Source: Aptenodytes patagonicus (Eukaryota; Chordata; Aves; Sphenisciformes; Spheniscidae). Taken from it: a DNA stretch of 64,000 nucleotides. Below the pieces are notes generated by a model. That model was not told the DNA's origin and did not search any database. It saw nothing but the letters and a program-made list of their open reading frames with translations. Of this stretch, positions 12,123-45,300 are shown piece by piece (position 1 is the first letter of the stretch; each line of letters opens with the position of its first letter). A program made the position numbers and the translations under genes. The stretch spans positions 7,199,501-7,263,500 of the forward strand of contig NC_134963.1 in NCBI RefSeq assembly GCF_965638725.1. Reading direction: 5' to 3'.

Positions 12123-12345
12123 TTAGAAGGTCTCGTCGTCATTGCAGTCGGCCGTCCAGTGCCCGAACATCTCGCAGGTATCGCAATAGGGGCGTTCTTC
12201 TCTCCTGCTGCCGTGGTAAGCTGAGTGGGGTGGCTCCTCCAGCATCTGTGCCTGCGTCGGACAATCTTCAGTGTCGTGAAGATCAAAGCAGCCGCAGATA
12301 TCACAGAAGAGACGAGGTTTCTTCTTTGACAGGCTTTCTTCTTCA
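12123..12345 (-). CDS. CLIP1: CLIP1 window exon 24: zinc knuckles and stop
   Basis: The coding part of the last exon is 223 bp. It encodes two CCHC-type knuckles, [15 protein letters not shown] (CX2CX5HX4C) and [14 protein letters not shown] (CX2CX4HX4C), and ends NDDETF with TAA at 12123-12125. The DETF tail resembles the EEY/F motif recognised by CAP-Gly domains, giving the known head-to-tail autoinhibition. The acceptor is TTGCAG|TGA. Confidence 0.97.
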
Positions 12346-18300: not shown

Positions 18301-21300
18301 TGCTTTACAGCTCCAGGTGGAGGCCCTCTAAAACTTTGATACTGGAAAACCTACAAATATAGTAGGTATATGTCACTACTTACTTACACATAAGTGTAGA
18401 TCACAGTTCACTTCCAGCATCAGCTGAGAGTCTACCCCACTGATGCTCTCAGCTTCAGTATCGTTTGTGGTATGATTCATATGAGAGATAGTGAACGTAA
18501 GGAGCGTATGTTGAATGTGAAGTAACTACATAGTGATAACTTGCAAGACAAATCTTGTGGAAAGTATTTATTTTATCGGGGGGGGGGGGGGGGGATTGAT
18601 CCAGTGAACTTAAACTTTTTCCCTGCCAATTCAAGTCCAAAATATCTGCTTGCCAGCAGGGATTAAAGAAAAACAACAATAAAAATTACTTTGTCATTTC
18701 ACACACCATTTTAAAATTTCACTTTCTTGAGGAGGTTAAACCATGTTTTGAGCAGTGTGTGGACGTCATGGGAGAGAGAGGTTTTTCTTTTGTTTTAACA
18801 TTAAAAAAAAAAATCACCCAGATTCTTCCCTTACTACAAAAATAAGAAAGTCTAAGAATGAAGCAAATACCTTAAAGTGTTACTGGGCAAGCTTTAAAAA
18901 TGCAAGATAACAAGAACCACATGTTAGAAACATGGAGTAGAAATGCAAAATATTCTAAGGAAGAACTAAATTTGCACCAAGGGGCTTTTTTGTTTTGGTA
19001 AAAAATATAGACTTTTTTTTAATATATATATATAGAGAGATATATATAGCTGAGTATTTTACAAAACAAAAGCAAGACACCAAGGGACAAAGGCAGCCAA
19101 AATATGTACAACAACTTTACTTAAAAAAAAAAAAATTATTTATTGTAACGTGGATAGACTTTCTTGAGTCTTACCATTAAAGACACACAGATATAGCAAA
19201 GGAAGCAAGGGTAGGAAAGGGAAGAGAGAGGAATGAAATGAGTATTGATAAATAGCGCAAGCTCAAAGACAGTAAGACAGTTAGCAACCCACAATGAACC
19301 TAATAAGCTGAAGTAACATAGAACCCCCTTAGATTCATAAATATCAAACTCCTGTTACTCCTAGCCGGACTATTTCATAGAGGGACTTGCTAAACTAGAG
19401 GAAGAGAATTCCTGTGGGTGGAAGGAAGGCAGGAAAATTACTGCTAGAAATTTGACCTAACTGAAACAAGAAGATGTCTCTTTTTCAGTATCTCAAATTC
19501 TTAAGACAAAAGGAAGAAATCATCACTCATCACCAACTTCACGAGAATTTGGGAATTTAGAGACACTTTTTTATTTAATTAGCTCTTCATTCAGCCTAAC
19601 TTTTTTCGTTGCAAATAATGTCATATGCTGGCGTATTTTAACCCCTACTGGCCTGCAGTCTGCTTCAGTGAGGTTGACTGTTTCTGCTACTTGTTTTATC
19701 CTTTCTATTGGAGTTTATTCAACACTGTTGAGAAATGTCATTAAGCCAAACTTGGGCATCTCAGTGTAACCAACTGAAGGTGAAGTAATGTTAAAACTCA
19801 CTTTAATGATTTCATAATTATCTAGGTTATTTCAGGCAGCTCAGAGTAAAAACAGGAGAAGGAAAATCAGAGCCACACACCTTGCTTTTTATAACTTACT
19901 ACAGAATTCGTCTTTTAAAATGTATGGTATGAAACAGAACTGCTGGAAAGTATTGAATGAATCTTGGGTCCCCATTCCCTCCTTCCTTCCCCCAAGTAAC
20001 TTTCAGGAATACACTATTTAAAAAACTCTCAACTATTTAAAATACATGTTTTAAAACATGTTAAATAACAGGCTATAAACAGCATTCTAAGCTGTCAGCA
20101 GTACTAATATCCTCTTTTTCCCTCCCTTCCTCCACATCAGATATGCTGGAGATGATCCTCAGTTGGTGTAAACATACTAATTATTGTGGATGTCAAATGG
20201 CCTTTACACCAGCTAAAGATTTCTCTCCTTATCTTCTCCTTCACCTCATCTTAAAAAAAATAACTTACACTTACGCTATTCTATGCGGCTAAAGGCTGAG
20301 TGATCCAGTTCATAAGGTTGGTTAAAGCTGGAGGTTCAGCTGCTCACTTGCCTCTCTGTATAACAACTGATCAAACTCTTACATTCTCCGAGGAAGCTTT
20401 AGCTTGTGTGATACCCTATGTGCCTCCTGCCCTTTAGAAGAGTGTGAGCTACAACAGAGTATGACCCACCTCCCAGGTAACAGATTATTAGGGAATACAA
20501 AAGGGATCAGTGTATAACACTGAGTAGCTAAGGATGTGCATAAATACCAAAGTACCACTCACTGTTCTTTGTTGCAACCATTTAAGAGGGGTTTGTTTGT
20601 TTTTCCTGGAACACGTGGTGTCATGGAGAGCTGCATCTTTTCCTAAGGATTTATATAACTGCTTTTGAAAAGCCCACATTTTCCTAAAGACATTGTGGCA
20701 CTTAGCCAACTAGCTTTCCATACATGTATTGCAGAAAGACAGTAAATTTTGTAACTTGGGACCATTTATTGAACAGCACAGTTTACAAATGGATGCCCCA
20801 GTCACCCAGGACAAATCTCCTGGTATTTAAAAACAGTGCTGAATGAACTGCAATAATTACTGCCACAACGAACTCAATATCCCCAAACTATGGGAACAAT
20901 CCATTCAAGGCTGAATAGTCGCCGCTTTTCTTTCTTTCTTTTTTTTTTTTTTTTTAAATAACAATCCTTAGCATCACTGTATTTTTCCATTATTCTTTAA
21001 GAACTTGGTGGGTCAGATCTGTACACACACATATTTATCAGACTAATGGACAATCCAATATTCCAGAGAAGACTAAAACCAAACACTAAACTGGTTACTG
21101 AAAATGAAGAAAACTACTACAATGCAAGAGGTGCGTAACTAAGGAGGAAATGGTAAATACCACTTCTTAACGTGTTCTTACATTAATACAATTACATTTC
21201 CTTCTGACTTTTAATAAAGAAAATAGGGAAGATATCATCTGTAAGCCAATCTGTGTAACAACCTCAGGACTTTTAACTTTTAACAATAGAAAAGAACCGC

Positions 21301-24300
21301 TTTCTTAGCGCTGTTTTTGTATTATGTTTTCTGAAGTTTTCTGTAGGACTGTACAGTTAAACACACATCAGAAAAAACAACTTACCTCTTTTTCATCTCT
21401 AATAACTGGTTATTGAGTACTGATCTCTCCTCTTCCAGCTAAAACACAAGTACAAAAAGACTACAGTTAATACACTAAGGATTGTTTCCTTAGTATAATA
21501 TATCAGAGCATCATTATCATCATAAAACAAACATGGGAGAGGCTACAGAGCCTAAAAATCCTCAAAGTAATCCATTTTCTACTAGGACAACACACACACA
21601 CAAACACAAATTGTTCAGTGACCAAGAATATTAGCTAGTGAGGGGTTATTACTGCTTTATATAGTATTTTCATGTCCCGTGCACACAAGAGAGGTGTGAG
21701 GCTAGTATTGTCTTATACGATATTTCCGGGTCCCATGCACAGCAAATAGAACCATAAGCTTTTCTGCGCCTGGCTATTAAGTTTAGCCCCATATCGGTGA
21801 ATTACTGGATTTGCTGTTGTTTTGACCTGGATAATTGTACTACTGATCCGTATTTGTTACTGTACCATTATTTAGAGATAAATTATTGATCCCTAAAGCT
21901 GTTGGTTTAGTGTCTGTTACTGTATCCTGAACCTGTAACTCGGCAGGGTCACCTTAAGCCCTCATAGTTAGCAAGGCCTTCAACTGAAAATACTGTTGCT
22001 GCAGGTTCTTGGGGTCCAAACTGACAGGCACACATAGGTTTAGGAAAAGCAAAACAAAACAACCAACCATAATTTGTACAACAACAAAACTGTAAACCCC
22101 CACCACAGAAACACTATGGTAACTGAACTTCTGATAAGGTTAAGAAATTAAGTCGTTTTCAGGCCAATTAATTATTTTTCACCATCTCCTCCTTTCTTCT
22201 TACTCAATGGCCGAAGTCAGCAATTACTGCCCTACAGAACTGCTTATAGTAGCAACTACCAGTGCCTTGGCTTGAAGACAATCTCTCTTTAGATTTCACA
22301 AGCATTCAGGGTTCATCCACAAGGTTAGCAATACATACATTCATAATGGAAACCTCAGAGCCCCGGGAACAGCAGCAAATAGTCTCTTATTGACTAAATC
22401 CTTTCAGCACTTTGCAGGCATTCAGGTTTGGCACAGACAGGCACAGAAAGCGTTAAGCAAGTTCCAATGAAAAGGAAGGTTGTCTGCCAGCCTCCAAGAC
22501 TAGGCTAAATGCAGCTCACCTAGATAAATTGTCTCCTCCATGTTTTCTGACAACTTGCCTTCTCCTTTCGTGTACTGCAGTGCTGTTAAGCCTTCCAGGT
22601 TTAAGATTAATCGGTATCATTTTGCTGGGGCTTAATCAGACAACTTCATTGATACGAAAAATAGATAGTAGAAGGGTGTAGAGAGACTTATATTAAGGAA
22701 TCTTAAAGAAAATCAAAATGTCTCTCTCAAGGAAAGTGACCACAGTAGACTGTGAGCAGCCATAGTACTATGGGGGTATGACCAAATTTTTCCTGCAGGC
22801 AAGTCAAAACCAGCAATTTCACTAGCAGCACAAAGTATAGCCCATTTTCGAGAATTTTTGTCTGCTTCCTACACAGAGGCAGCCTATATGAACTCCTTAC
22901 AGCTGTACAGACTGATGACAAAAAAGGAGAAGGAAAAAAGAATATGAAAATTCTGAGAAATGTTTCACTTCTAAATCCCAGTGAGCTGCACCTCTCCAGA
23001 ACACCCTCTGGCATCTATTTTATATGGCCTCTCTCCTCCCTCAGACTCATGTTGCAATCTCCTGTGCATCACACTTTTCCAGCTGGTTTTTTGGACTACT
23101 TTTCCTCTACCAGCACTAGCATTTCTCTACGGTCACACTGTGCAGCATTAACCAGGCCATGTTACACAAACAAATTGCCTCGTTTCACCCCAGGCCAGCT
23201 TAACTTTCTGGTGTTTATGCTCTTGACTGCCACTTGCAATTGGAAAAACCTCATACTGACATTATTCACCCTTTACTCCCCAGAGGCCATGTCCACAGAG
23301 CTCCATGATGCTCTCCCCGTCCCATCCGCCCCCCACCTTTTTATCGGTTTCTTTTAGGAAAAGATTGTGGTGCCTGTTTAACTCAGAAAATCCTTCAACA
23401 TCTGTGGAATGCTCCAAGACTGTGAGCATAAACCCTGCATCTCTCCTCCCTTTTAGTTCCCTGGTTGGCTGTGGAGAGATGAGTGGTTTTTGTACAGACC
23501 AAGACAGAAGTGGATTTAAAAGAGAGAAAAGTAAAGGACAAGATGTTAGGGAGTTGTGCAGCTTCTAAACCCCTGTTGCAGCTGCATCGAGTTATGGATC
23601 AAGCCTTGAGCAGCTTTGTGGTAGAAAAGGAGAAAGGACACCCCTTCTCTCATCAACATTCCTCCAGCAATCCGCTCACTCTCTCATTAGCCTCAGAGCA
23701 GACTTCTCGCATACCTTTAATAAAAGATGGACCAGCCGAGCTAGTAGATATTTCTACACTTTTTCCAATGAAGTTAAAATACCTGGGCAGGTCTAAGGCT
23801 CCCAAAATGCTACAACAAATAATTTGAAGCCAGGAAAGTTCCCCGAGCTCATATCTATCTGAATGTGAATCTTTAACTAATTACAGACAGCTAATTACTT
23901 ATGGATCAATACAGAAAAGCACCCCTCAGCATCTTTAGTATAAGACACTTTAACCTTTAGATGTCAGGATAAATCATTCATGAAACAGTATTCATTAATT
24001 TTGCAAAGTGTGTCACATGCAGCCACAGATTCACTAACCCAATTGACTAACACACTTGCTAGAATTTATATAGTTACCATAGCGACTGCTCAAAATACTT
24101 AAGACATATGCTTGCTACCTTTCTTACTGCATTTTAATAGGCACATGCACAGAAACTCACACAGACTGAAGCACTGCTACATTCTGTGCTTTCCTCCCTA
24201 CTGTCCAATTTTTCAGTATCCACTGCATAAAATGCAGTTCCATGAGCAATCCTGCTCTGTGTTTAACCTCTTCACTGCCACCACAGACACTTGTTCTCTA

Positions 24301-27300
24301 AAATCTAATCGAGCAATTCTTCATGGTAACATTTTTTTCACTCCCCACAGACAGCCTGAACCAAGGAAGCCCACAACATGCTGCAATTTGGTGCCTAAAC
24401 GCAGTGTACATTCACCCGAGTGACAGCAAAGGAAAGTGATGGTGGGGATCAGTGAGACTGTGCTAGCCCAAGATAGGGCTGTCCGAGAATCCTCAAGGCC
24501 AGCTGGTTTTGTTGCCGTTTCATTAAGAGAACTCGGCAGAGTCCAAGGTAGAACGAGGGGACTGGAAGTTCAGGTTCTGCAGAAAACACGGAAAAAGTCC
24601 TGTTCCTCAGGATAACAGCAGGTTTCTATCAGAATGAAAAGGCTGGTTAGACTTCACATGCTCCAGATGAGACAGGGAATGCTTTTTAGGAGAACATCTG
24701 CCTCCACTCCCAAGTAACCAGGAAATACGACAGTTCTGGGCAGACAGACCGCACGTCTTGCCAACGAGACCTGAACAATACTGAACTGAGAAGAGCTGCA
24801 CTCGTTAGTTATGTGACACTTGGAAGGAAACCTGCATTTTAAATGACACCATTTTGCCTTCGCTCCTTTTGCCACAACACAGCTCCCTGGAATACCAAAG
24901 GCCTCTTCCAGTCTTTTAGGAGGTTGTGCAGTTCACTAGACCTAAAGCCACCACAGTCCAAATATTACATGTAGGAAATGCAACAGGCGGCATTCCCACA
25001 TTTCCAAGACTCAGATTACATCTTCCTCGCAGAAGAGGACATAATGCAACACAAATGGCTGAAGAAGGCAAACAGACTGTTTCTCCAAGCTCTAGCAGAT
25101 CTTCCAGATTTGTGATCTTGGAGCCATCTACTCACGGGCGGAAAAGGCTATGGTGCAAGTGAACTGAGAATATTCCAGTGTGCAAGATGATCGACTAATC
25201 CCTGTGCTTCACAGATTACAGCTGTCTATCCTGGCAATGAGAGAAGGATCCCTGCTGACAGATCCACAGCAGGCAGGATGCAGACAGCAGGACTCCTTCA
25301 CAAGGTCACCTGGAAACAACGGAGGCCACAGACTGAGATTGCAGTGACCACCGCCAGCCCGTGCCTTGTGGGCTGAAGGTTCCCTTCCCTCGGGGACTTT
25401 CTGTATATCAACTCTGGCTACATACAATAGGCAGAAAGGTTTGACCAATGTTGCCGAATACTTTTCAATTTACAACTCTTTCTGAAAATAACAGGTTGCC
25501 TCAAAGATTCTGAAATAATTTAAGAAAACATGTGGGAGTGGGGAGCAGAGCTCCCACTGGCTGTTTAGGATGACAGCATTCTCTTACCACACCACTACTC
25601 AGATGCAGCATGAGTCAGTGGTTGAGCCCACACGTCTGGGACTCTTGTTAATCATCTCCACAGGCTCTCTAGGATGAAGGAGCTCGTGCGTTACTCCTGT
25701 CAGCAGCCAAAAGGATTTAGAAACTGGCCAGATCTGTAGTCACTGATCCTCAGTATTTCCAAACAGGACCCTTGAAGAAAAGTCAGCCTCTTGGTTTTAA
25801 AAATATTAGGCTTTGTTGCAGGATGGAAGAGATCTGTTCCACTGTCACTGGGAACAAGCATACCCCTCTTCTGCACATGTGCTATCTCAGAAAGGCAATA
25901 TATAAACCCATGCCTTCTACGTTCTTGCTTTTGGACCAGATCTTCCAAAGATGTCTTCACGGTGTGGCTGTCACTGGAACTGTTCCACAAGAACTAAAAC
26001 CACCATATTTAATGGCTGTAAATCTAATTTATCTTTTGGCAAGTACCAGTGTTATAAGCTGTGTAACTAAGCCCATACTTTAAGATTCCAACAGCCTGTT
26101 CAAATGTAATAGTAAAAAATAAAAAATAAAATTTAAGAGAGCCCTTTTCTCCCCTGTAAACTACCGCCAGAAAAACATCTTACATCGATTCCAGTCCTCC
26201 TGGCTGCAGCACTGTTCATGTACCTGCACAGTATGAAGTTTAAGCAAGCATACATGTGCATAGTGCTTTTTAGAGACAGAGTCCAACCAAGTAGTTTCAA
26301 ACAGTATTCTGAAATACATCCTAAATACTCTTTTTTAGTGGGAAGGGAGAGCAGGAATAAGGAGGAGAATTAAATTGCTAGATTTCCTTAGTACTGGGTA
26401 GATGGAGATTTCCACAGTTGGATAACAAAATTACTCCTGACAGAAATAGCAAGTGTCTGTTAATACATTTGGCTAAAGCATATTTAATTTATGCTTATTC
26501 CCAAGCCTCCTAAGTATCCTTCATGGGTTACGTAACCTTCTGTTAGCCTGCAGTTCTAACCTCCCAATGCAGGTGGCTTCCAAATTTATGTTAAAACATT
26601 CTCAGAACAACTCATCTTTCAAGCACAAACATGCAGTGCAACGTCACCCAGGCATCAGCGGAAACAGCATGCACAGCACTTGCACCATAGATCGGGAAAC
26701 GTCCCAGCCACTCTACCTTCTGATGACTTGTGACTTCGTCCCTGCTCCTGCCCAGCTCCTCGGCAAGTTTCACGTTCTCCTCTTGCAAAGCTGCAAGCTG
26801 CTGGGACTTCTGAGCTGCTGCCAGCTTCAGCGCTTCGCTGCGAGGACAGAGAGTACATCGTTACCATAGGAACGAGAGAGGCAAGAAAAAACTGTGGGAG
26901 AGATTCAGCTTCACAGCTTGGAAAAATACATCTAGGTCACGTGTCTAATGGGATCTATAATAAAGGTGACAATCTATACTTCAGATGCACGGGGACAGGT
27001 TTAACCCTGAAAAGCAGTAGCAGCACAAAACTCCTTTTCCTTTAAATGTATCAGATACTCAAAGAAGTGGAAGGTAAGTTCAGACTGCTAGTTCCGCATG
27101 CTTTCAATGGTTAGCAAATGCTTGGATTTAGAAATACAGGGTAGGGTTTGACAAGAGTGTTGGCGAGGCTAATAGCCTAGACTTTCTCTGAAGTGAACTC
27201 TGTAGCCAGAGGGAAAACATGAGAATTGTTTAAAAAAAAAAAGAGGGGGGGGAGGAAGGCAAAAAGAAAAAGAAAAAAAAGCAAAAGAAAAAAAAAGCTT

Positions 27301-30300
27301 ACAGTTCCGCTTATTTAAATACTCCCTACAAGGTCTGACATCCAAACATACAAGAATGTGCAAGATCACAGGAGGCAAAACAGGAAAGTATCTAATCTAT
27401 TCCATTATTTTAACAGATACAAACCTGAAACCAAGACAAAACAAAAGCTGAAGAAAAAAAAAGGATTTGCAGGTTTCATTAACCTATGTTGCCACTAAGA
27501 TGTGTGGTTTCCTTAAAGTAAGTTTATTTTCAACAAAGTTTTGAAAAAAATATTTTGCACGCCTGCCTGTAACACAAGTGACTAACACAAGTTTTTATAA
27601 GATTTGACAATCTCTTTCAAAAAATAAAAAAGATGTGCTTCATTTCATTAAACAGTAATTTTTATGACTGTGTTTTGTTTTCATGAAAAGGAATCTTCAG
27701 TACTCCCATGTGCCAACGCTGCACAGAGTTAAACCCTGACTGGAATATTAAAAATACTTTTATGACTCTGGGAGGCAGAAGAACCCCTAAGTCAGAAACT
27801 TATTCAAGCACTTCAAAATACAAGGAGTCTATGGTCTATTATTGGGCACATTTAAACTAAAGGAAGTCTGATTTACTTTTCGAGTTCAGCATGTAATATG
27901 GCTAAGATTTTCCAACCATTTCTTCTATCTGGTCTCACCTTGACCGATTTCTAATCCGACCCACCTAGACTGGATTAAACAGGCTAGCTCACATCACTGA
28001 ACATCGATTCAAATTATCTTGGTGTGAACCTACTTGCTGATGCAGGAACATACCTATTTTTAACCAAGACTGTTTGCTGAACTGCAGTACTAACCAGTTC
28101 TCCTCTTTTTGCTTTTGGCATTAAAGCGTAGATTCAGGGCATTATAAAAAAAGCACACAAAATACTGGGGTCAATTTGTGTGAAATGCTCCCCTGTGCTT
28201 AGTGCCAAGGAGCTTCAAACTGATAGCTGCAAGGGCACTTGACAGTAGGCAGTACTAAACGAATACACAACATCCAGCCGGTATTTCTGCTTTTCTTCAT
28301 CCTAGTTTTGCATGGAACGCTCTTTTACAAAGGCCACCAATGTCACTGTAGCACCCTCCCACCTCCAAAGGCGCTGTTCTAGAGGCAGCAGCATGTCCCT
28401 ACCTACAGTCACAGCTCCTGTGGGCAAAATCTTCCCTCTACTCTCCTTTGCAAAGACAAGGGAACTACCTTCATCAACTGACCTCTCAAAGGCGTTCTCT
28501 CCACCCACACTCCTGCTGATCAAGAAATGCCTATTGTCAAGCAAATTCCTTACTCTAATTAAAACAAGCAACACACAAAATAATTACGACAACAAAGATC
28601 AATTAAAAACAACTAGACAAGCTTCCACTTATCCACAATGTCTCATACCACTGATGATTAGAGACCACATTCAGCAATAGTCTATGACTAAGATTAACCT
28701 TAAGGAAAAAGAAAAAAAAAAAACAAAAACCAAACCACAAAGTGATGAGGATCATGAGAACACTTTCAGTGCTGAAGATTTTCAAGGACGTATCTTCTAT
28801 AAATAACTTCTGCTTGACAAATTACAGTCTAATATATTTTGTCTTTCCATGATACCAGAGTCTGCTAGCCCCTTGCTGTTCTAGCATTAGAGCAACTAGT
28901 CTGGAAATAATTAGTTTGCTTTGGCATTTCCCACCAGCACTGAGGCAGGTAGGAATTGCTCACGGAATGAAATCCTGCCTTCCTCAAAGGAGGCTGCTGC
29001 CTATACAAGCATGCAGGTTTTTAAAAGCAAGCAGTAAAACCTGTCAGTCAGAAACTTAGTATTAATTCTGTGTGCTGATTTCCTTTGTGTCCGGTCTTCA
29101 CCTCAGAGCAGTGGTTAAGAACTATCACAAAATGACTTATGGAACTAACAGGAATAATAATTAGCCAAAGCTGCTCTTAGCTACCAGTCCAGACTCCAAA
29201 CTAGTGCCCTCAGGTGGCAGAACTCTATACTTCCTCCGACAAACAAATTATTTCAAACGGAAATAATCCTCAGAGTGAAGGATTTGCTTCAATACCCTTC
29301 AGCAATTCAGGAGCAGCATTCTGATTTCAAGTTTTATACATGTCAAACTAATATTTAATTTTGACCTAATATCTGCCTTATAAGTGAGGATACGAGAGAG
29401 ATACTGAAAGACAATTTAAAAAAAAAAAGGAAAGGTAAATGTAACTACAAAGGAATGGTTTAACAGATGTAACATTGAAATACTTACAATTCTTTTTTAA
29501 GTTCTTCCACTTTCTTGTTCTCCAGATTTAGAAGCTCTTTTGATTTATTAAGTTCCTCTTCATTTTTCAGGTTGTTTTGTTTAAGCATGTCCAACTTAAA
29601 GAGGAAAAAAACCCTCGTTACACTAATGAAACTATACAGTTCTTAGGTGTAGCACTCAGAAAAGATACTTAGCAAAATGGGGGCCTGAGCTGAGCTGTTC
29701 CACTTTTTCATCTTTAGTCTTTAAATTAATTCAGCCTGTTTGTACTGAGAAGCATTTGTCTAACAAAAAATGTTATGAGACTTTCTGCATTCGAGTCAAG
29801 CAGCACAAAGAATTCGAAGTCCACTGAAGAGCAGCTTACAGTAATCTGATGCATATACCCTGATATAAAAGGTAAAGCTCCAAAGCACCTCCATTTTAAA
29901 TGCTATACAACTCAAAGCACTGTTGTTTTTTTTTTTAAATTCAAGCTTGTTGCTAAAATTAGCTGTTCCCTTGATCTTTATTCCTCTAAGACAACTGATA
30001 AAAAGTTCTGCTTTACCATACCTTAATTTCTGAGAAACAGTAGGCTGTATGTCGTGCTTGCACCCATAAGAAATGAATTCCTTTCGGAGGTCTTGCTGCA
30101 TGGGACAAATTGTTGTGTATCTATTTACTGAGCTTGCATCTACCGCGTAAACAGCACAAGCTTGCGAACCTTATTTGTTCACGTTCAGCAACACATTATA
30201 TTACATAACAGATAATCTTCAGCCATTCTCATGGCATTACAGGACCCTGTGGATTTTTTTTTTTTTTTTTTAAATCCAGAAAGTGAACCCCTGCCACTGT

Positions 30301-33300
30301 TAATGTCACCGCTTTTCATTCTCGAGTCATCAGATCTCGTTGGAAGTCAGTACTGTTTCAGCACAAACTGTGGCATTTAGGTTAGCCCAGCTGTTCACTA
30401 CCCATTATTACGTGAGCTGCAAAAGATGAAAGAGCCATCAAAAAGAGGCCTGCAGATCTCAAGATCTGCAGAAAAGATGCCAGTTCAATGTTAGACTAGA
30501 TACGCTGGGGCAAAAGAGTGTGAAAAAGATAATTGTGAGGACATTTTTCCCTCCTTTGAACCCTGAAGTATCACAAAGTGGTGGGAGGACGTAGACCGAA
30601 GAACAAGTCCCTAGAGGAACTGCTGTACACGTTGGACTGTGAAGTTCTTTGGGACCACTGTGCTCATCTATTTGTATAGTGCATAGCTCAGCAGAATTTG
30701 TACCTCGTCAGATCACAATTCTGATTAACAGAAAAGTGGAAAAAAAGAAGGAATGATAACGTTACACATGCCAAGATCACAAAGAGGATGTACAGAGCAA
30801 GGAGTGCACTATAGGTGAGAACTGGAGCGGTAACTTTTGTGCATTAGGAGCACTGTTACTCAGAGTTCTGTAGCACTTCATTGGAGTGTGAAGTTGCACC
30901 CCGTACTTACAACCAGGGAACTGAAGCACAGAGCGGTCACATCTAAGCAACTTATCCAAAGCTATACAGCAAGACTGATTAAGCCTTGAAGTTAAACCCA
31001 TGTCTCTTGATTCTGTGATCTGCAAAAGCTGCTGTAGCATCCAGAACTCCCATTACATAATTTTTTTTGTTGCTGCACCAAGATTTAAGGGACATGACCT
31101 TATATGCTGTAAAGTATTTGAAACCACATCCAAATTACAGAAGAACATAGGTTATATGGCTATATAAAGCGCCTAGATTTGCCATCAATATGCACTATCT
31201 AGTAAGTTTTATCAAGACTGAGTATTGTGGTGGGAAGATGACAGAATCCACTCTTGCCTAAGCTAATTCTCTGTAATTCAACAGTTGTTCCTTACCAACT
31301 AGGCAGAACATTTCATATAAAAGCATTTAAATGCGATTACTTCATTCTGTAGCTTCTCATTGGTCTGTCTAGAGTTCTCCAAAGAGGCCAAAGTTTCAAT
31401 CTTTTCTTTGTGAATGGCATCCTTCTCTTTGGTCACCTTCTCCACAGTCTGGAAAACATCTTCTGCCATTTTGGCAGCCTACATATAAAGGGGGGTGGGG
31501 GAAAAAGCAGCGTTACCAAAGGGGGCTCTGAAAGCAAAAGATGAACCACAATACTTTATGCACAGCTCCACTGTTTGCCAGCTGCTTTCCAATCAAACAA
31601 GGACTTCAGCTGGGAATTTATTTGCATTTTGAAGCTGCATAAAGTATAAAGATAAATGGACATGAGAAGATTCAATTCCATGCAGAAACAGATCATAACC
31701 CCATGCTTGTGTTACCACCGAGGAAGCCCATTTCTTCTTTTTTTAATTCCTGGATTTCTAATTACCACCATTGTGATTGCTCTTACGACTTATAGCCACT
31801 TTAGACAGTAGTAGTTCAATAGATATTCACTTCCAACAGACTGCTCTATTTTCAGAAAATGTAGAATTATAAAAAGCTGTTAAAATTTTGAAAAAAAGAA
31901 TTAAAAATCAAATAGGAGATAAAGCCAGTTATTGCATTATTTCAGTGTTGTTCATTATGCCTTCATAAAAGGAAATACTTCACAAGTATATTAAAATATC
32001 TAGGTAGGCATAATACATTCCTACAGTATATCTTGATTCCAATTTGTATTCAAAGTTATTTTATGGGCTTCAAGCCCCACAAACTGAAATTCAAAATAGT
32101 ATTTGGAATTTGTTGGTGGTGAATACAAAAGACTTCTGTGAATAAAAAGAACACCAGAATTGCCAATGTCTTTAACAGACTGAAAGTCCTATAATGTAAA
32201 TTTAAATGGTTCTCCTACACTACTTTTTATCCAATTACATTTACAGGAGCAGTACATTGTTTTGTATTTTTTGAGTAACCCAAATTTGTAATTTAACATA
32301 AAACTGCACAAAGACCTGATCTAAAACTGTATTTATTACTACTCTAGCTTTCAAGCTGCAGAGTACTTCAACAGAAGGAGCTGCTCAATTTCTCCTACCA
32401 GATTGAGGAAACAAAACTTCCTTTTATTCACAGTTTACGTTGTTTTCTTGCAACATTCAGCAACAACATAGGCTTTTATATTTATAAATAAATAAATTTA
32501 AAAAAATAGAGTTAGTGTCTTTCAGACTCACAGTTACAACTTGAAAAAAACCAAAGTAATGTAGTGAGAGAGACCATAACTCCAGCCTGTTTATAGTGAG
32601 ATGAAGTGCTGATTGTGCAATGAAGTGCAGAGAGGAAACCATTGGGTTAGTGCTCAGTATTAGTATAACCATACTTGATTGTTTAACTATGTGTTTCAAT
32701 ACCTCAATTTTTTGCGTTACTGTTTGGGCCTGGAGAGTCTCAATTTCTTTTAGTTTCAAAGCCAGATTGTTCATCTCCTCCTGCAGCATCTGATTTTTGC
32801 CCTGAGAGACCAGCAATTTGCCTGAGAGGTCACTATTAGTTTGTTTTAAAAGTGATACTTCCTTGTGCAGTTTATAATAATCCTTGGAGAATTTCTCCTT
32901 CTCTTTTAGTGTTTCTTCCTTAATGATGACCAGACTCTTCTGTTCAGCAAGCAGGCTGGCATTTTCCTGAAGTAACTGTATTTTCTCCTTCTCCATCACC
33001 TCATGCCTGTGTCGAAGATCATCTAGCCTCTTGGAGACACAGCTATGCAAGTCCTGGAGCTCTGCTTTTGATTTAGACAAGGAAACAAAGTCACTCTTCA
33101 GTCGTTCGATACTGGAAGCGAGCTGCTCTGTCTCTGCACAGAGGCTTTCTTTTTCTTTAATTATTTCCACCAGTTTAGTTTCAGATTTTTCTTTCCTCTG
33201 AACTAGAAGTTCTTTCTCAGTCAGCAATTCTTTATTTTTCTCTCTCAGCTCTTCTATCTCCTTCTCCAAGAAGCTGATGTTGCTTTGAAGTTCCATACGT

Positions 33301-36300
33301 TCCAACAAAAATGATTCCTTGTCCAGTTTTCTAGCTTCCTTTTCTATGGTTAAGTTTTCTTTCATAATCTCAACCTCTCCATTTAATTTCTGACACTCAT
33401 CTTGCAATTCAGTCCTCTCTCTGGTCAGCATTTCCCTATCAGTGGAACAGGTCTTGAATGAAGATGACAGGACCTGCTTGGCATGTGATACGGCAGCCAG
33501 TTCATTTTCTAATGTTCTTTTGGCATCCTGGGCCTCTTGCAGAAGATCTGAAAGGTCACATTTACAGGCTATTAGCTCTTGATTTTCTAGAGTCTTCTTA
33601 CTTAGTTCTTCCTTGAGGGCTTCAATGGAATCTTGGAGCATGGCATTCTCTTGGGCCAGAGCTCTCTTGGCTGAGACATCCAGTTCATGTTCTCTCTTCA
33701 TATCAGAAACTGCATTTGCAGAAGACTTGTTTTCATCAAGAAGCTCTGAGTATTTGTTCTCCAATTCATTCTTCGCTTGAAGAAGAGCTTCATGGTGCTT
33801 TTCAAATTGTAACAACTTACGAAAACCAGACTCCTTTTCTAAGTTCAGTTCATTTATTTTCTCAGTAAAGACTTTCTCAGCAAGTACAGCATCTGCTGTG
33901 GCTTTAGCAAGCTTTTCAGCAATTGCCTTATTTTCATTTAAAAGTTCCTCCCTTTCAGCCAAAAGCCTTCGTTCTGATGAAGAAAGAGCCTCTTTCTCTT
34001 GAACTAACTGGTTACACTCAGAATTGGTTCTCTCTCTTAAGGCTTTAATTTCCTCAAGAAGATGAGAGAGACTAGCAAGGGAATCCTTCAACTCCATATT
34101 GTCTTTCATCGCTTTTTTAAGTTCTTTACATTCAGTCTCGAGTTCCGTTTGCATCTCTTCCGTTCTCACTTTTAATGCTTGGTTTTCACTAACCGTATTG
34201 TCTAAACTCACACGCAGCTCTTCTATGCTTTTAAGAAGCATCTCCTTCTCGGACTGCAGACTCTGACTTGTCTGCAATAGACTGTCCATTTTATTTTCCA
34301 AGGCTGTATGTGTATTTTTAAGATCTGAGTATTTACCTAGGGCTGAATCTCTCTCTGCAGTCAGAGTTGACACTTCTTGCAGTAGCTCTTTTTGATCTCT
34401 GGCCAGGGCCTCACAAGAACTTTCCAGCTTCTGAATAACATCATCTTTGTCTTTAACAACGGCATCTTTCTCTTCCAAAAGTTTCTTCTGATAATGCTTC
34501 AGTTCTTCCCGTTCTTTGATATGCTTCTGACATACCACGTCCATGGCATCTTTGTTGGCCTGAAGTTCTTTCAGCTGTTGGAGCAAGGCTGACTCTGAAG
34601 ACCACAGAGCATCATTTTCTTGAGTTATCTTCAGAAGGTCTGCCTGTGCTGCCTCTATTTCAGAGAGTAATTTGCTTTTCTCAGAAATTAGTGCTACCTT
34701 TTCTGTGCTTTCCTGCTGGCTTTTGGCCTCAGCTTCTTCCTTCTGCTTTAGGATTTTTTTATTTTCTGAATTAAGTTCTTCATTTATTGTCCAAAGTCGT
34801 TCTTGGTCTTGTTCCATTACTGAAATCTTTGATTCCAATTCTAGAAGTTTTGATAACAAGGAACCTCTCTCTAATTTTAAAGTATTCCCCTCCTGTGCCA
34901 GAGCCTCTTTTTCTGATATCAAACCCCTCATCTTGTCTGACATTAGTTCAATCTCTTTTCTGGCTGATGCTAACACAGAGCTTAAGGGCTAAAGAAATAA
35001 AGTCAGGGAGAAGGGAAAACAAAAATGAAGTCAAGCAGACAAATGAGGAATGTGGTTTAAGGGCAAACAGAGCTATTGTAATTTAAGTTTTTAAAAAGTG
35101 TATACACTGACACACAGTCCCTGCGTGAATTCAACTGTTGACAGCCACCACTGATATTTCATTACAAAGCACCCACCATCCACAGGAAAACTTTTCCGTG
35201 GTTAAATAAATTTAAAAAAAAAAAAAAAATCATGGTTTGAAGGTTCCTCCATACAAGACTTCATCTTGTTTTTAAAACTACTCTCAACAAATTTTCTGAA
35301 TGTAAATTACTCAGAAAAGAGCCACAGAATTATTTCATGAGAATCTAAGGGAATTCAAATGCAGGGAGTTATATTAGATACTGACTTCCAATTCTCAAAT
35401 TCACCTTCTATAGCTACTTGTCCTCATGATTCTGTCCAAAACATACTGTCATAACCCATTTAATGCAAAACACCACATCAGTGGTGTATTTAAAGTTAAC
35501 TTGTGTGCCAATTTATACACTAAATATTTTGCTAAAGCATGAAACAAAGATTATAGCAAATAACTAATGAGGGATGAAAGCAAGCAGCAATGTCAAAGAA
35601 ACATGAGAAAAAAACCCAGAAATTACTAAAGTCAAGCTACATAGTAAGTAGTTGCACATAATATGGGATCATAGTACAGAACAAAATTTCAGGTCTGTAA
35701 CACTTTTAAATGAAATAGTTCACAACATTTTAAATAAAATTCATGCATTTAAAAAACAGAGAATAACATCTGGATCCAACTGATTGTGCTGAGCCAGATA
35801 TCTATGAACATAAAATGTTAACATCAAAGAACGATATTTCATGGATTCTTGTGTAATCTAGAGAAGACAACCAGTTAATTGTGTATGCTTCTCTTCCCTA
35901 ACCAATATTAATCTACCCTGGAAAAGTTCAAAAAAGAAACACTGCAAAAATCCTACTATGAAATGATGAAGCCCGGCAAAAAACAGTGATTCACTGAAAC
36001 AGAAAGATTTAAACTTTAAATTACGCGCAGAGTAACAAAGTATACGTACTTTGGCCTGTTCTGCTTCCTTTTTCAGCTCCTCGGCCTGTGTTTCCAACTC
36101 ATCGTTTTTCTTTTGTGCAATTTTCAGTGCCTCTTCTGCATCCAGCAAGTTCTGCTTCAACCCTTTGATATCTGCATCATGTTTCGTGATCATCTCAGAA
36201 GTTTCTTTTTCATACTTTGCCTGAAGATCCTTATACTGAGTTTGGCTAGTCTCGATTTGCTTTTTCTGACAGAAGATAAAACAATTGGAACACAGTTAAA

Positions 36301-39300
36301 GAAGCAGCGGTACTATATTCTGCACGTAGTTAGCTAGTGCTTCTTAAATTTCTTCTTACCATGTCTGTTAGTTGATCCTGCATGTTTTTCAGTTCTGCTT
36401 GATGAATCTTGAGTGTTTCTTGCTGACTCTGCTCAGCTTTCCATGTTGTCTGCTCCACATTTTTCTGAAGCTGAACAGCCTTTTCATTTGCTTTAGTAAG
36501 CTCAAGTTGTATTTGCTCCAACTGCCTAGAAAGACCAAATAAAAGAACATTACTTTTTGCTGACAGCACGACAAGCACAGAGACAAAAGACTCTAAATTA
36601 TGCTTAAGTTCTATTTTCTGTCCAAGCATTTAGAAAGAGATTTAATTCTTTAACATATAGAGAATGTTCTGCTAAATTAAATATATACGAGTGAGACCAA
36701 GCACTTGCCCGTGTGCAGAGCAACACAGCTGCCAGTCACCTTGCCCCCAGCCTGGGGTTTTGTAAGGTAAAGAACAACTATTCTACATACAATTTTTATT
36801 TGAAACAAAACACATTTTCTCTTGCTAGAAACGTGGGTCAAAAATGTGACCCAAAGTCTTTTATTATATATCCAAATAAACCAAGCTTATCAGGTAATCA
36901 ATTAAGAAGCACAATCACAAAACAGTCTAGATTATTAAAATGTTCGTTTACTCTGGACAGTAAGAAGCATGTTACCTAAGAATTTTAGAATTATAAATGT
37001 TACATGCTCTTCAAATCACTCTGAGGAGACTGTTTGGATGAATTTAGTTTGATAGAATTAAGTTCACTTGTCGTATCAATGACATTCAGGAGCATCTTGT
37101 TCAGATAATTTACAAAAAGATAAAATGAGAAGCAGGGAGTGCAGGAGTAAAGAATTAATGTGAAAATGTTCTGACAGTGATGGAATACCTTTCTTTTAAC
37201 CGGAGCTCATCATTCATTTTTGTAAGTTGGGCAGAGCTGTCTCCTGAAGACTTCATGATCTCTGCAATATCATTTTCAAGTTTGGCTTTAGCTTCAATCA
37301 GTTGCTGTTCTCTCTCTTCTCGCTCCTTCAATTTCTTCTCCATCACTGAGCAAGACAAAGGTTAGCAGTCTAGTAAATTTAAGAGAAAGGGTACGCACAG
37401 CCTAGCTAGAAGGTAGTAAAAAACTATAAACACAGCAATATTGATGCTACAGAGCTTGCAAATTACCCCTCTAAAATGAAAAATTACGATTGTTTGACCT
37501 TTGAACTGTTAATTGTAGCAGAAGGCTGAGAACTCTTCAGACATAGTAAAAAAGCAACTAGCCAAGAAATCTTTATTTCAGAATTGATTCACTTAACTTC
37601 AGGCCATGAGAAGTGGCTACGAGTTCCACCCATATCAGATGGTAGTCAAGCAATATAATAAGAGAGGTATGCACATCTTACAGGCAAAACAACTCACCAG
37701 CTATTTAGTAGAGCAGCAGAAAACAAACAATGCAAGCAACACAAAGCTACAGTAAAAAAAAATTACTCATTCCAGGGCAGGCACTGCCACCAAGGGCAAG
37801 AGCAGCCCTTGGGATGACTTCTACAGTCCCAACAATGCCTTGAAAGGCTTGCTTACAGGGTACATAATCACTCTTGATTTCTTTCTACGCTGGTTTTAAA
37901 TTGAGATGTACAACTAGAAAGATACAGCAAGACTCCCTCCTATGAGATAAGAAGAAGCAGACAACCAGACGAATGTACAGTCTATTTTATGTCCCTAAAA
38001 AGAAAACACTACTTATGGACAAGGCTTCTGTGAATTAACTATCTTACGCGTGTAATTCTTCAGCACGGTCCCCAAGCTTTTGACTGGTATCTAACCATTA
38101 CGGCATGATTTTGTGGCAACATCAAGCAAGAATTTAACTATTGATTTGGAATACACTCAGCCAGGAAATCTTCTGCCTTACTGCACTATTCCCTTAACAT
38201 CACCATCCCCTTGCTGCGTCACTATACACAGTGCCACAAAAGCTGTTTTCTGCTTAGAAAAAAGGCTTTCTTTTGAAGGCAAATGCATTTGTGAAAGCAT
38301 TACATACTGTGATGTGGCGAGCTGAGCAGGAGGCATACGAAAGCACAAAGCTGATGCGTTTTTCAAAACATTCCATTTTATTACTTCCTTACCAGTCAAA
38401 CTAGACTTCAGCTGTTCCAGTTCTGAAGACATGAGTGCAAACTGCTCTTCTTTTTGGTTTAGTTTTTTTATTGTTTCTATGCAAGTAAAATTTTGAAAAC
38501 AAAGTTAGTAACTACTTAGATGCAGACAATTCCACCTACTCGCAAGGTATATTACTCTTAAGAGAGGCTGCGCATAATCCTGTCCTTTCCATAGCTGCTG
38601 AAACTGCTGTACCGCCAAGTGTAAGTTTGAAAGCACATGGAGAAACACCCTTTATTTTGCAGCATTTATTTTCTGCAGCTTTTTATTTCTTTATTTTGTT
38701 TAGTTTAGCAGCAGACATACCTTGCATAGTTTGTTGAACGTTTTCTGCTTCATCAGCTGCACTAGTAAACTTTTCTTTCTGAAAAATGGATAAAAACCTA
38801 AGGTAAGGTTTGGTAACAGCAGTATAATTCAACCACTGAATTTATAGTAGGTATTTTTCAAGTACAAAACAGAACAGTCTTCACCTCTATTATAAATCTG
38901 AAGTTTTCGAATTACAGTTTAGCATAGATATAGTCAGCAACATAAAGCAAGATTTTCCCTTGCCTTGGTTGCAAGCAAGTCCCTAAACTTTCAAAATAAC
39001 TTCTCCATCAGCTAGCATAGCAACAGAACTGCAGCCACAGAGTCCTGTGTAGAAGACGTGATTTCTGGGCTTCTCAATGCAAGGAGCTATCCATGCTGCT
39101 CACAGGCTGCACAGTGGACATCTGCAACCCTGTGATCAATCTCATACCAGTGTTTTCCAGCTTTACCAGCATGAAGAGATGCTAGACTGTGAAGAAAAGG
39201 GAGGATATTGAGGAAGGTAAGAAGCAAGACTCTTCCACCAACTTCAACTATTTACTATGGCCATGGACAGATTTTATGAGAGGGATAGTTGAAAGCATGT

Positions 39301-42300
39301 CTTTTTGTTACTAACTCCGGTGTAGTTTCTCAGGAAAATCCCACCCAACTACAGAATACTTGCAAGTTTAATTAAATTTGCAAAATGAGAAATCGGATGA
39401 AAAATGTCTTCAAAAACCATTTGTAAGACGCGTATAGCAAGCATTAATTTGTACGACAGTTATAACAAAGGGCCATGCGTTCCTTAATGAGTAGTCTAAA
39501 TTTAAACTACATGCTGCTTTTGATTTGGTTTAATATTTTATCTGAAATCCATAAACAGATGAGCTCTATTTAGACAAAACACCTGATAACACAGAACTCG
39601 GGTGAAATGCTCTTTTCATTCTGACATGGATCCTGTTAGTCATGAACCCTTGCCTTCTTTTCATGAGTAAAATAGCTTTAAAAAACTTTGCTCAGTCAGA
39701 GTTGATCCTCAGATTTCAATTACACTCTCACCATGAAAACCAAAATCCAAAGGATAAAGTCAAAATTTTTGGGTATTACTCACCAAAACTTGAAGTTCCT
39801 TTTCCAAACAATCTTTAACTTGATTTACTGCACTCAAGTTTTTCTCAAGGTCAAGAAGCTTTTGCTCTTTGCCCTGCAGTTCTTTGGCCAGATTACTAGC
39901 CTAACGAAGATGATGAAATGGAGTAAAATAAAATTACAAACATGAATGAAAAAATAGGAAAATTAAAAGTTGAATCTGAAAGAAATAACTATACTATTAA
40001 TATCACTGTAAGATGAAAAAATAAAAGAAACTGAACAAAAACAATGTGATGTGTTAACTGAGCAAAGCTGATTTCCACTGATGACTACATCACAGTACTA
40101 ACTGCATCTTGGAATACATTTGAAATTGTTAAAATTTAGTTCTCTTGGAATTAATGGTAAAACATTATTTAATGGCAGACATTTTTGAGTACATTCAAAA
40201 TTTCCAAACAAAGTTAAAGCATCAGTTGAATTAGTAGTTTTGGTTCTTTATTGTTTTAACTTTTTTATCTGATAAATTTAGCATTTATGTTTCAACTGGC
40301 TATTCAGACCAATACACATACGGGGATGTAATTTTTCAAAAGGCTCTGTACCACACCCAGGGGTAGTGCAGAAACCCAGCGTGAACTCAAAAATAAAGTC
40401 AAAGGTCCACAGAAATCTAGCATCTTGGAACCATCTGTGAAGGGTTTAGGAAAGCTACTTCCCGTTACTTTCCCACTACTCTTAAAATTAGAGCTCTATC
40501 TTGTCAGGTCATGCACAGATTAGGGATGTGGAGGAACCCCTAAAATGAAATTATATCTTAGCATTTTTATTCCTAGCTGCAGTGGCGGAACAACTTTCAA
40601 GTACTGAATGCCATGCTATCAACTTTAAAGAGACATTGCATCCAAAACCAAGAAAAATCTCGGCAAGATGTATCATGTTGCAGTCTGTGCTTCAAAAATG
40701 CTGTGAAACGGTGCCCAACAACATCACTGCATACCCTTGTCTTAAAGAAAAGTTCCACAGGATCTTTTTTGCTTTCTTTTGTTTTTAATAGCCTCTTCCA
40801 TCATCTTGTTTGATGAGAGGCAAGGTAGTGAAGGTACAGAGGAAACATTTCCCCATTGAGCCCCAAGTCACAAAGGTTAAAAACTTAAGATGTGTGGATT
40901 CTTCTCCCAAATAAGACAACAAACTAACTTTTCCATAACATGAAGCTTTCAGCAGAGGCATGCCGAAGCCTGCAGCAAGAAAGCGCAGAAAGAACTTTTT
41001 TCTTTTTCTTAGTGGTGCAGACCAAGCACTAGAAACCTGTTGAGAGACGTGACCCAGTGAACGCTTTCTCTAAACCTCCTCAGATGGTACTAAGATACGC
41101 ATTCAATAAAACTAGTTTTTTCTGTGATGTATTTGCGATAGCAGATTAGAACTGTACAAATGTAAAATAAAAACAAAGTAAAAATAAAAGGATGGATGTT
41201 GATACAAACCTTGCTACTTCCATCAACCTTTTCAGTCTCTAAATTCTGAATTTGTTTCTCAGCTGCCTCAAGCTGCTTGCTAAGTTTCTGGATTTCCAAT
41301 TTACCTTCAGAATTGGCTTTCTGAAGTGCAGCAAGGTCCAAAAGCTTTTCTTCAGCAGCTTTGATCTGTGGTGTAAGACTATCAATAACTTTGGTTTGTT
41401 CATTGTACTTGGCTTGCAGTACCTCTAGCTCCTTTACCTTTATTTCAGCTTCCTGTAATTTGTTTAAAGTGTCTTCCATTTCTACTAGATGCTGATCTTC
41501 CACACTTTCCAGTTTGGTCTTCAGGCTTTCCAGGTTTTGCTCTTTCTCCTCTGTGACTGCCAACAGTTTTGCTTTCAGTGATTCAATCTCTTTTAAATGA
41601 TGAGATTTTTCATTTTCCTGCTTCAGTTTTAAATTTGACATTTCATTTTCGTAGTCTAATTTAATCTTCTCAATCTGAGTCTTCAACTCTGCAAATTCTG
41701 CTGTCTGAGCCCCTACACCTTTGCTGAAAGAAACTTTCAGCTCTTCCATTGCTTGTTGATGGGAGGCAATTGCAGATTCCAGCTTCGATTTCCACAGCTC
41801 TATGACATCTGAATTCTCCTTGTTGGCATGATCAAGCTTAGTTTTCAAGGATTCATTTTCTTTTGCCATTCTCTCATTTGAAGCTGAAAGTGATTTGATC
41901 TCTTTCTGCAACGCTTCTTCGCTAATTCCAAACTTCTCTTTCAGTGAATTCATCTCATTCTGATGTTCTTTGCTAACTGCTGCCATTCTTTCTTGCAAAG
42001 AACTTATTTCTTGTAACAATGAAAGAGAAGTGTCCACATCATCAATGTGTTTACTAGACTCTAATCTCCCTCGAAGCTCAGCTACTTCCTTCACCCGCAA
42101 TGCTAGATCTCTTTCTAGTTCCATGATGCGAGATTTTTCTGACACCGTGGCCACCTATGATTAATAGCATTTCAAGAAAAGAAGAAAGAATTATAAAAGA
42201 TATGTTTAATACAAAGACACTTAGGCCTCATTGAAAAGAAACCACCGAGTGTTGCAAACTAACATCATTAGTGTATTCTTCCTCGCATTTTGGATTAGAA

Positions 42301-45300
42301 TATCTTTGAGTTTCTTTGTCAACTCCTATTTCTACGGAAATTCTAAAGAAACCTTAAGTAAAAGTAAATGCTGCTTTTACATGGAAGGCTGTGAAACAAG
42401 ACCAACTGTTGTTTCATTTATGTATAAATTATTGCTTTAAAAAAAAAAGGAAAAATGTCCACGTCTTTGTATTACACGCATATTATATTCTTTCTAAAGG
42501 TGGAATTTATTTAAATTCATTTTTCTGAAGTTATCTGGAAATAACGACTTGCTAAACAACTTACAAACTATGCTTATGCATATTATCAATGTTTAACAAA
42601 ATATTTCTCAGAACCACTTTAAAGCAGACTGAAAAAGAAAGGAGAACCCTGAGGTCTGTCTTTATTGAAATAATTGCTTCCAAATTCATCTCATGCCAGC
42701 TATAAGACTGTCAGAGAAAAATACAAACACATTTTTAGCCTACAAATCCTTTGAAACTCCTTCTATATCCACTCCATTGTTCTCTCTGAAAAAGCGTCCT
42801 CACGTTATCTGAGCTTTTCACTGACTGTTGAAGCAGTTTGTGGTATGGAAAAGCATGCAAAGCTACCACAACTATTTCTAATTAGGAAGTTACTGTTTCA
42901 ACCTCCCTATTATACCAACATCATGAAAAAGATACTACTTACCTGCAATTGCTTTTTAAAAGTACTTATTATAGAGTACATTTTTGGTTTTATAATATTC
43001 ATCCCTACCTCAACTTCAAGAAAAGCCACGTGTGAGCATGAATCTCTTTCTCTCTCTCCCCCCCCCCGCCCCTTAAGAATTGACATCTGCTGAACTTCTG
43101 ACTTGGGACAAAGTATGTCCAATAATATTTTGACAGGCAACAGTATTACTAATGCTACTAGGATATCCATGAAAAGATATCCATGTCATGGGTGGAAAAA
43201 AAAGAACCAAAAAGCCACTGCAAACCATGATTTAGCAAAACAAGTAGTACAACAACTATCTAAGACCTCAGCAACCAAGCCCCAAATACTAAGTTTGTGT
43301 TAAAAGCATCGGCACAGTCGATCTTACTTCTTTTGGATTTAATGAACTTTGCTACTTCTAAAAATGAACCACTGAATATTCCTTTATGTCAATTCACAGT
43401 CCCATTTGCTACTTTTGACTTGGATTCAAGTATTAATTTTGCAGTTTTAAGACATCTTACCTGAATTCTTCTGAAGAAATGAGTATACATATACAGGCAT
43501 ACACATACGCAACACTGAAGCTCAAAATTAATGCTAATTTTTAAAGTGTTCCAGCTACATCTCTAGCAGGTACTGATCATGGTAGGACCAAGGATATGTT
43601 TCGGCACGTGTTATACCCAGAAGACTGTGTCATCAGAAATCTTCCACAACACAAATCAGTCTTGTTATTTAAATAGTGAAAACCATTACCCTAGTGTCTT
43701 CTAACTCCCTCTGGAGTTTGTCAGCTTTGGTCTTTTCAAAGAGCAGGCTCTGTTCAAGCTCCTTAATGCGGGCATGCTCCAGTTTGGTCTGCGTCTGTTA
43801 GTAAAAAGGGAAAGGAAGAGAACACAACGGTGCCACCATCACATGCCAGCACAAGAGGAGGGAGCCACATGCAGGCCGTGCTGCCAGAATCTTCTACCAA
43901 TGATGAGCAGAGAAGATGCAGTGGATAAAATGAACAGGGAAATGCTATGGATGAGAAAGATGGACTGAAAGTGTAAATGGACTGAGTGTAAAAAAATAAA
44001 AAATAAATAAAAAAAATCACAAACGAAGAAATATGAACAAAAAAGTTTCATGCAGCCAAGTAGAAGTTATTTATCAGTACATGAAGTTTTCAGCACAAAT
44101 TAGAATAGTTATGTAAAAAAAAAAAATATATGTGTATGTATATCTGTACCTGTTCTAACAGGATGATAAATCCCTTTCCTTGTCATCCCACTAACTTTTT
44201 TCTTTAATGTATCGGGCTTATTTTATAAATGATTTAGTTATGAACCAGCGGACAAAAATTCATCACTGAAGCTCGTAAGACAAATTAAAACTTTTTTTTT
44301 TTTTTTTTTTTTTAAATAGTGGCTGTATCTCAAGTCTCAGCCATAAAAATCCTTTTTGCTAAGACCTGGGAACACTAAGGTTCACTTGTCACTATGGTAT
44401 GAATTATTTGAATAGAAATAGAAAGAGAATGGTTGTCTATAACTGCAGAACCCTCCTAGTTCTTCCCCCTCCTCCTCTTTCAGGAAGGAAGCAAGCAGCA
44501 AGTAAGATTCTCCAAAACCAGGTGAAAAAGTGAATCAGTCTGGTTGCTCTGTTGTTACTGAAGTCTAAATGCATTGAACAAGATGTGGAAGTAAGGAAAA
44601 AAAAAAAGAAAGATCTTTGTAATTCTAATGGGTTCCTAAAGAGAAGCAGGAAGCCGATGAAACTGAGTGGGTACCTCCTTGCCTTTTGCTTACAACGGGG
44701 TAGAATTTTTAGCAAGAACACAGAATATTGGATATTCTGGCTTGATACCCAGATACTCCCAGAGGCCTGCAAGAGAGCTTGAAGTTTGAGAGATGCAGGT
44801 AAAGTCCAGCAGCTAGTTCAAATCTGACCTGCACCTCTGAAGTGGGGAAAAGGGGAGGGGGAAAGAAAAAAGAAATAAAAAGAGGTAAGAACGAGGTGCC
44901 ATGCTTATTTCTGAAGTGCCGAGATTTGAGTACTGTGTCAATCTTGACAGGTCACTGTTAGTTTAAATTTACTAAACAATCCAAATTAAAAGGATTATGA
45001 AAGTCTATTGTTGCTTCACAGTGTCTTTTCCAAAAAGAGCAGCTTTTCAGGGCTTGCCCACATCAAGAGTAAGGTGGATGTCCAGAAGAAGACTGAATGA
45101 ATTTCTGCCTGGGTAGGCTAAGATGTGTTTATTAACCGAAGAAGTGGCATCCATCAGTCTGATGAAAGTTACCCCACACAGCTTAACTGCCGCAGTTAAT
45201 TTACTGCGGAACAAAGGCGGTAACCCCCAAACCCTACGAACTACTATTAACAGAAAAGAGTCCTGCAGCCTGAACAGCTACCCACTGAACACTGGATTGA

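Follow-up and report, generated by a model that had tools for sequence, protein, structure and literature searches.

The stretch of DNA analysed here (the window, 64,000 nucleotides of contig NC_134963.1 of the penguin Aptenodytes patagonicus) carries on its minus strand the coding region of CLIP1, the gene of CLIP-170 (restin), from the second CAP-Gly domain to the stop codon (12123..56736, 23 exons). Among these exons is a giant one of 2286 bp (34988..32703), which is probably an alternative, in-frame cassette exon and is the subject of this work. The 23-exon model was built manually on the reading frames, with the human protein as a further guide. Every internal border is AG and GT, and the model is open in frame both with the giant exon (1977 amino acids in the window) and without it (1215 amino acids). 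A gene finder working de novo, with the giant exon and the large rod exon as its training set, returned 12 of the 23 exons exactly and 7 with one boundary right, missed 4 (55523..55307, 37345..37189, 31478..31341 and 21438..21386) and added 5 spurious pieces. The first two coding exons (222 amino acids, including the first CAP-Gly domain) lie 6-8 kb past the high end of the window, at about 7269834-7270992 (G000:C15); with them, the full protein has 1437 amino acids in its standard form and 2199 in its long form. The Pfam family CAP_GLY is matched at 1.7e-25 in the window and at 7.8e-26 just outside it (L014), giving two N-terminal CAP-Gly domains, and CLIP1_ZNF is matched in two stretches (2.2e-17), giving the C-terminal zinc knuckles, which CLIP-115 (CLIP2) is not known to have. 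Against the PDB, the best chains for the CAP-Gly exon are named Restin, that is CLIP-170 (2.2e-24), with CLIP-115 near (5.5e-23).

The giant exon runs from phase 0 to phase 0 over 762 codons (2286 = 3 x 762) with no stop, a run expected by chance with a probability of 1.1e-24 given the exon's own base composition. The remaining frames over the same interval hold 58 and 70 stops on the minus strand, and 56, 20 and 24 on the plus strand. The TAG of the acceptor itself is the codon immediately 5' of the exon, the first methionine is codon 16, and the frame continues open for 243 bp 3' of the donor, through a tail that to the eye does not look like coiled coil. The codon-position composition resembles that of the large rod exon of CLIP1, for which the interval 42154..41150, with 60 bp of intron in it, was used. 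Upstream lies an exon of 216 bp ending in EAEQAK (36050..36265) and downstream one of 138 bp beginning with AAKMAED (31341..31478), both on the minus strand and phase 0 to 0. The call of a coding cassette exon is thus based on the open frame, the codon-position composition, the heptad periodicity described below and the in-frame splicing. Direct re-reading bore out the original prediction of this exon in its coordinates, strand, length, phases and splice boundaries; the two flanking exons also join in frame, both being in phase 0 at their junctions in the 23-exon model. Its figure of about 2,200 amino acids for a CLIP-170 with the exon agrees with the 2199 computed here. Its statement that the other exons add up to the chicken length is right in substance (1437 amino acids, close to the 1433 of chicken CLIP1), but this cannot be seen within the window, as the first two coding exons are outside. 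The rod was also said to be lengthened by about half: the added 762 amino acids do amount to about half, but of the whole protein, and to about three quarters of the 1001-residue rod.

The predicted product of the giant exon is rich in glutamate (16.4%), lysine (12.3%) and leucine (16.0%), and its single proline in 762 residues is residue 1. Periodicity is strongest at 3.5 residues, the heptad peak, and none of 200 shuffles was as periodic, in agreement with the coiled coil predicted from the start. Inclusion of the exon would add about 87 kDa and about 113 nm of coiled coil (762 residues x 0.1485 nm). The phase of the 3.5-residue period was compared on each side of the junctions, with three scales and three lengths of protein window (9 settings). 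At the junction formed by skipping, the phase jumps by 125-141 degrees in 9 of 9 settings; with the giant exon included, the jump is 30-67 degrees at the upstream junction and 0-28 degrees at the downstream one. Along the full rod including the exon, positions have a median jump of 26-40 degrees, and at 2-9% of them the jump is as large as at the skip junction. For random deletions the median jump is 88-93 degrees, and 22-30% of them equal or exceed the skip value, so that the skip junction looks like an ordinary random cut, and not worse; joins as smooth as the upstream junction arise in 17-36% of such deletions, and ones as smooth as the downstream junction in 0-16%. The long rod appears continuous in register and skipping appears as a cut, a pattern that is suggestive but is not proof. 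Against the register argument, a jump of 139 degrees, with weak power (0.7) on one side, also occurs at one other normal junction, that between 36360 and 36265.

Splice-site strengths were scored with matrices of textbook frequencies, on which all the scores and ranks given here depend. The 3' splice site of the giant exon (34989..35004, minus strand, gactttatttctttag), which reads ctttatttctttag/CCC across the border, is the ninth weakest of the 23 acceptors in the gene model. The 5' splice site (32697..32705, minus strand, GAG/gtattg) has no G at +5 and is the second weakest of the 22 donors. Both ranks are what one would expect if skipping is the default. Between 32760 and 32540, the donor at 32703 is the only listed phase-0 donor above zero (0.2). 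Another phase-0 donor, 171 bp beyond it at 32532, scores 2.0, and five within the exon (34536, 34212, 34194, 34170 and 33000) score 2.0 to 3.3. Because of these higher-scoring donors inside and beyond the exon, the 3' boundary at 32703 is probable but unproven, and the exon may also have shorter versions. The gene finder closed the exon at 32675 (CAA/GTATGG, phase 1) instead of 32703. As a separate observation, the exon directly downstream has the weakest of the 22 donors (31341, minus strand, GAA/gtaatc, score -0.4), and this exon (31341..31478) may likewise be regulated.

Giant coding cassette exons are the subject of a study by Ilik et al. According to its main text (Nature, February 2024; PMC10901741), human CLIP1 and mouse Clip1 have a giant protein-coding cassette exon that is repressed by SAFB and is specific to spermatids (spermiogenesis). 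The main text also describes giant protein-coding cassette exons, MAPT excepted, as containing over 33% A and as rich in purine enhancers (PMC10901741). The giant penguin exon shares this composition, with 37.7% A against 28.3% in the CLIP1 introns, and 7.87 GARGAR motifs per kb against 1.81; GAAGAA occurs at 3.06 per kb against 0.47. The other CLIP1 exons are alike, however (37.6% A and 9.05 GARGAR per kb), so the criterion does not discriminate; as the giant exon is no richer than they are, its composition fits targeting by SAFB without proving it. Seven motif counts in the giant exon were also compared with those of 1000 synonymous shuffles. An excess was seen for GARGAR (18 against 13.7, with 1 of the 1000 shuffles as high) and, weakly, for DRACH (61 against 52.7, reached by 36). 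No excess was found over the 1000 shuffles for GAAGAA (reached by 157), AGAA (156), purine hexamers (146) or donor-like sites (396). CpG is depleted, with 21 occurrences against 45.0 in the shuffles, none of which was as low; its density is 9.19 per kb in the giant exon, 15.62 in the other CLIP1 exons and 10.06 in the CLIP1 introns.

Taken with the open frame and the in-frame splicing, this comparison points to a genuine alternative exon in the CLIP1 coding region that would be the counterpart of the human and mouse giant exon, a reading to which we give a probability of roughly 0.82. The alternative in-frame giant exon of CLIP1 that had been predicted is also the best reading here, and the use in a particular tissue that was suggested for it matches what is reported for the giant CLIP1 exon of human and mouse (PMC10901741, main text). 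The likeness to the mammalian exon extends to the gene itself, to giant size, coding character, optional use in frame, bias towards A and richness in purines; the difference is that splicing, control by SAFB and expression in spermatids are shown in that paper, whereas the penguin exon is known from DNA (PMC10901741, main text). The giant cassette exons of ANK3, ANK2, MAP2, MAP4, MAPT, NIN, MPRIP and NASP are of the same kind, several of them being used in one tissue, but belong to other genes and tissues, and that of ANK3 measures 7.8 kb (PMC10901741, main text). Like them, the penguin exon is a very long coding exon whose skipping keeps the frame: it measures 2286 bp, is in phase 0 at both ends, and leaves the 1215- and 1977-residue in-window forms both open. 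Several points weigh on the other side. Orthology to the mammalian exon is inferred from the same gene, the same kind and the same make-up, not from an alignment, and in the penguin the DNA sequence is the only source for the exon. Its last stretch is weakly periodic (power 0.6-1.3), which makes the register argument weak at the 3' end of the exon. The bias towards A and purines fails to separate it from ordinary CLIP1 exons and, of six RNA motifs, GARGAR alone clearly exceeds what the protein and the codon usage would lead one to expect.

We also looked for relatives of the giant exon protein that might reveal its origin. A genome search with it gave 17 candidates, all scored, and a single match, which was the exon itself; the CLIP1 paralogue on C17, probably CLIP2 by the likeness of its CAP-Gly sequences, thus has no giant-exon counterpart detectable by genome search. 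Against Pfam there were two matches, both below the cut-off, and no transposon domain, and against NCBIfam two SMC matches far below the cut-off, as expected of any coiled coil. The PDB gave three matches (best E 0.014). Pattern matches in viral contigs (3) and in prokaryote genomes (21) were in no case confirmed. Insertion of a transposon or a retrogene was rejected as an origin, with no Pfam family above the cut-off and no source copy elsewhere in the genome. Duplication inside the rod was not supported: when the giant exon was compared by blastp with the remainder of CLIP1, a single match resulted (E 0.23), and with itself the full diagonal only.

The exon might instead be constitutive or broadly used in the penguin lineage, the short form being a minor one. 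The heptad register, kept in the long form and broken in the skipped form, and a composition that is that of an ordinary CLIP1 exon would both agree with such use, but the weak donor would not, and neither would the chicken protein, whose 1433 amino acids do not include the exon. In mammals, moreover, the giant exon is repressed by SAFB and specific to spermatids (PMC10901741, main text), and we regard constitutive use in the penguin as improbable.

Two further explanations, each of which we consider very improbable, would deny the exon a present role in CLIP1. One is that an intronic gene or exonised insertion, as a nested or read-through unit, sits in CLIP1 by chance. SAFB is described as also binding pseudogenes, nested genes and transposons, that is, long, intronless, A-rich frames inside introns (PMC10901741, main text), and the giant exon has the look of such a target; yet its protein has no Pfam family above the cut-off, no transposon domain and only SMC matches far below the NCBIfam cut-off, no second copy was found in the genome, and the frame starts exactly at the acceptor, with its first methionine at codon 16, phase 0 at both ends and a register that fits both neighbours. 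The other is a decaying relic that is no longer spliced in, for which the rank of the donor (second weakest of 22) and a CpG density at the level of the introns, below that of the synonymous shuffles, might speak. The chances of this are as slight, with neither a stop nor a frameshift across 762 codons and with splice dinucleotides and heptads intact.

If the giant exon is, as we favour, an alternative exon of CLIP1, its use might be controlled as follows. In most cells, SAFB proteins would coat the long purine-rich exon in competition with SR proteins and TRA2B; the weak donor would remain unused, the exon would be skipped and the 1437-residue protein made. Where SAFB is scarce, which in mammals would be the post-meiotic spermatid, the exon would be included and the 2199-residue protein made, with about 113 nm of extra coiled coil separating the CAP-Gly head, which binds microtubules, from the zinc-knuckle tail. 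With this longer reach, the spacing between microtubules and their partners would change, for example in the manchette, which gives the sperm head its shape. Defects of manchette and sperm head are listed for the loss of CLIP-170 (PMC8812575). The longer rod could also change the autoinhibition of CLIP-170, which is mediated by its first zinc knuckle (PMC8664194).

For mammals, a giant coding cassette exon of CLIP1 has already been published; the present analysis adds that such an exon probably exists in a non-mammal, together with its precise anatomy and the observation on register. A literature search, with most subscription journals beyond its scope, yielded no report of a giant exon in CLIP1 from outside the mammals; among the papers listed, PMC10901741 was the sole one judged to bear on such an exon, and the words chicken and zebrafish do not occur in its main text. 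Birds and mammals diverged about 310 million years ago. If the penguin exon is the counterpart of the mammalian one, an optional exon of 2.3 kb has stayed open from that split onwards; the giant exon would be older than mammals and the 2,199-residue form would matter. One might speculate further that the exon is ancient and common to birds and mammals, that the long rod is the original CLIP-170, and that CLIP-170 as known from textbooks is a somatic form made by skipping the exon, with a hinge in the rod where the register breaks. This reading, which is derived from the coiled-coil register being continuous solely with the giant exon in, is a tentative one and we hold it to be doubtful. The giant exon also offers a clean test of the role of rod length in a microtubule-tip protein.

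Other features of the locus may be mentioned. Chicken muscle CLIP-170 reportedly contains inserts of 11 and of 11+35 amino acids (Griparic and Keller, 1998/1999), which would likewise be alternative exons of the same gene, but small ones. In the penguin, a 33-bp phase-0 stretch (48026-47994, minus strand, gatag/.../gtaaga) encoding 11 residues lies in the intron between the exons ending in GDLE and beginning with TQTK, and is probably the known 11-residue alternative exon of CLIP-170. The second large CLIP1 coding exon (42154-41210, minus strand, 945 bp, phase 0 to 0, 39.3% A) is presumably constitutive, and its splice scores are low (acceptor -0.1, donor 1.6). No Rfam match reached the gathering score within the window. 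An exon of 50 bp (14666-14617, minus strand) encodes 17 residues unlike the human segment at the same place, and may be lineage-specific or alternative. Finally, a Sec1-family gene, presumably VPS33A, starts about 1.2 kb beyond the CLIP1 stop codon on the same strand (about 10950-6800, minus).
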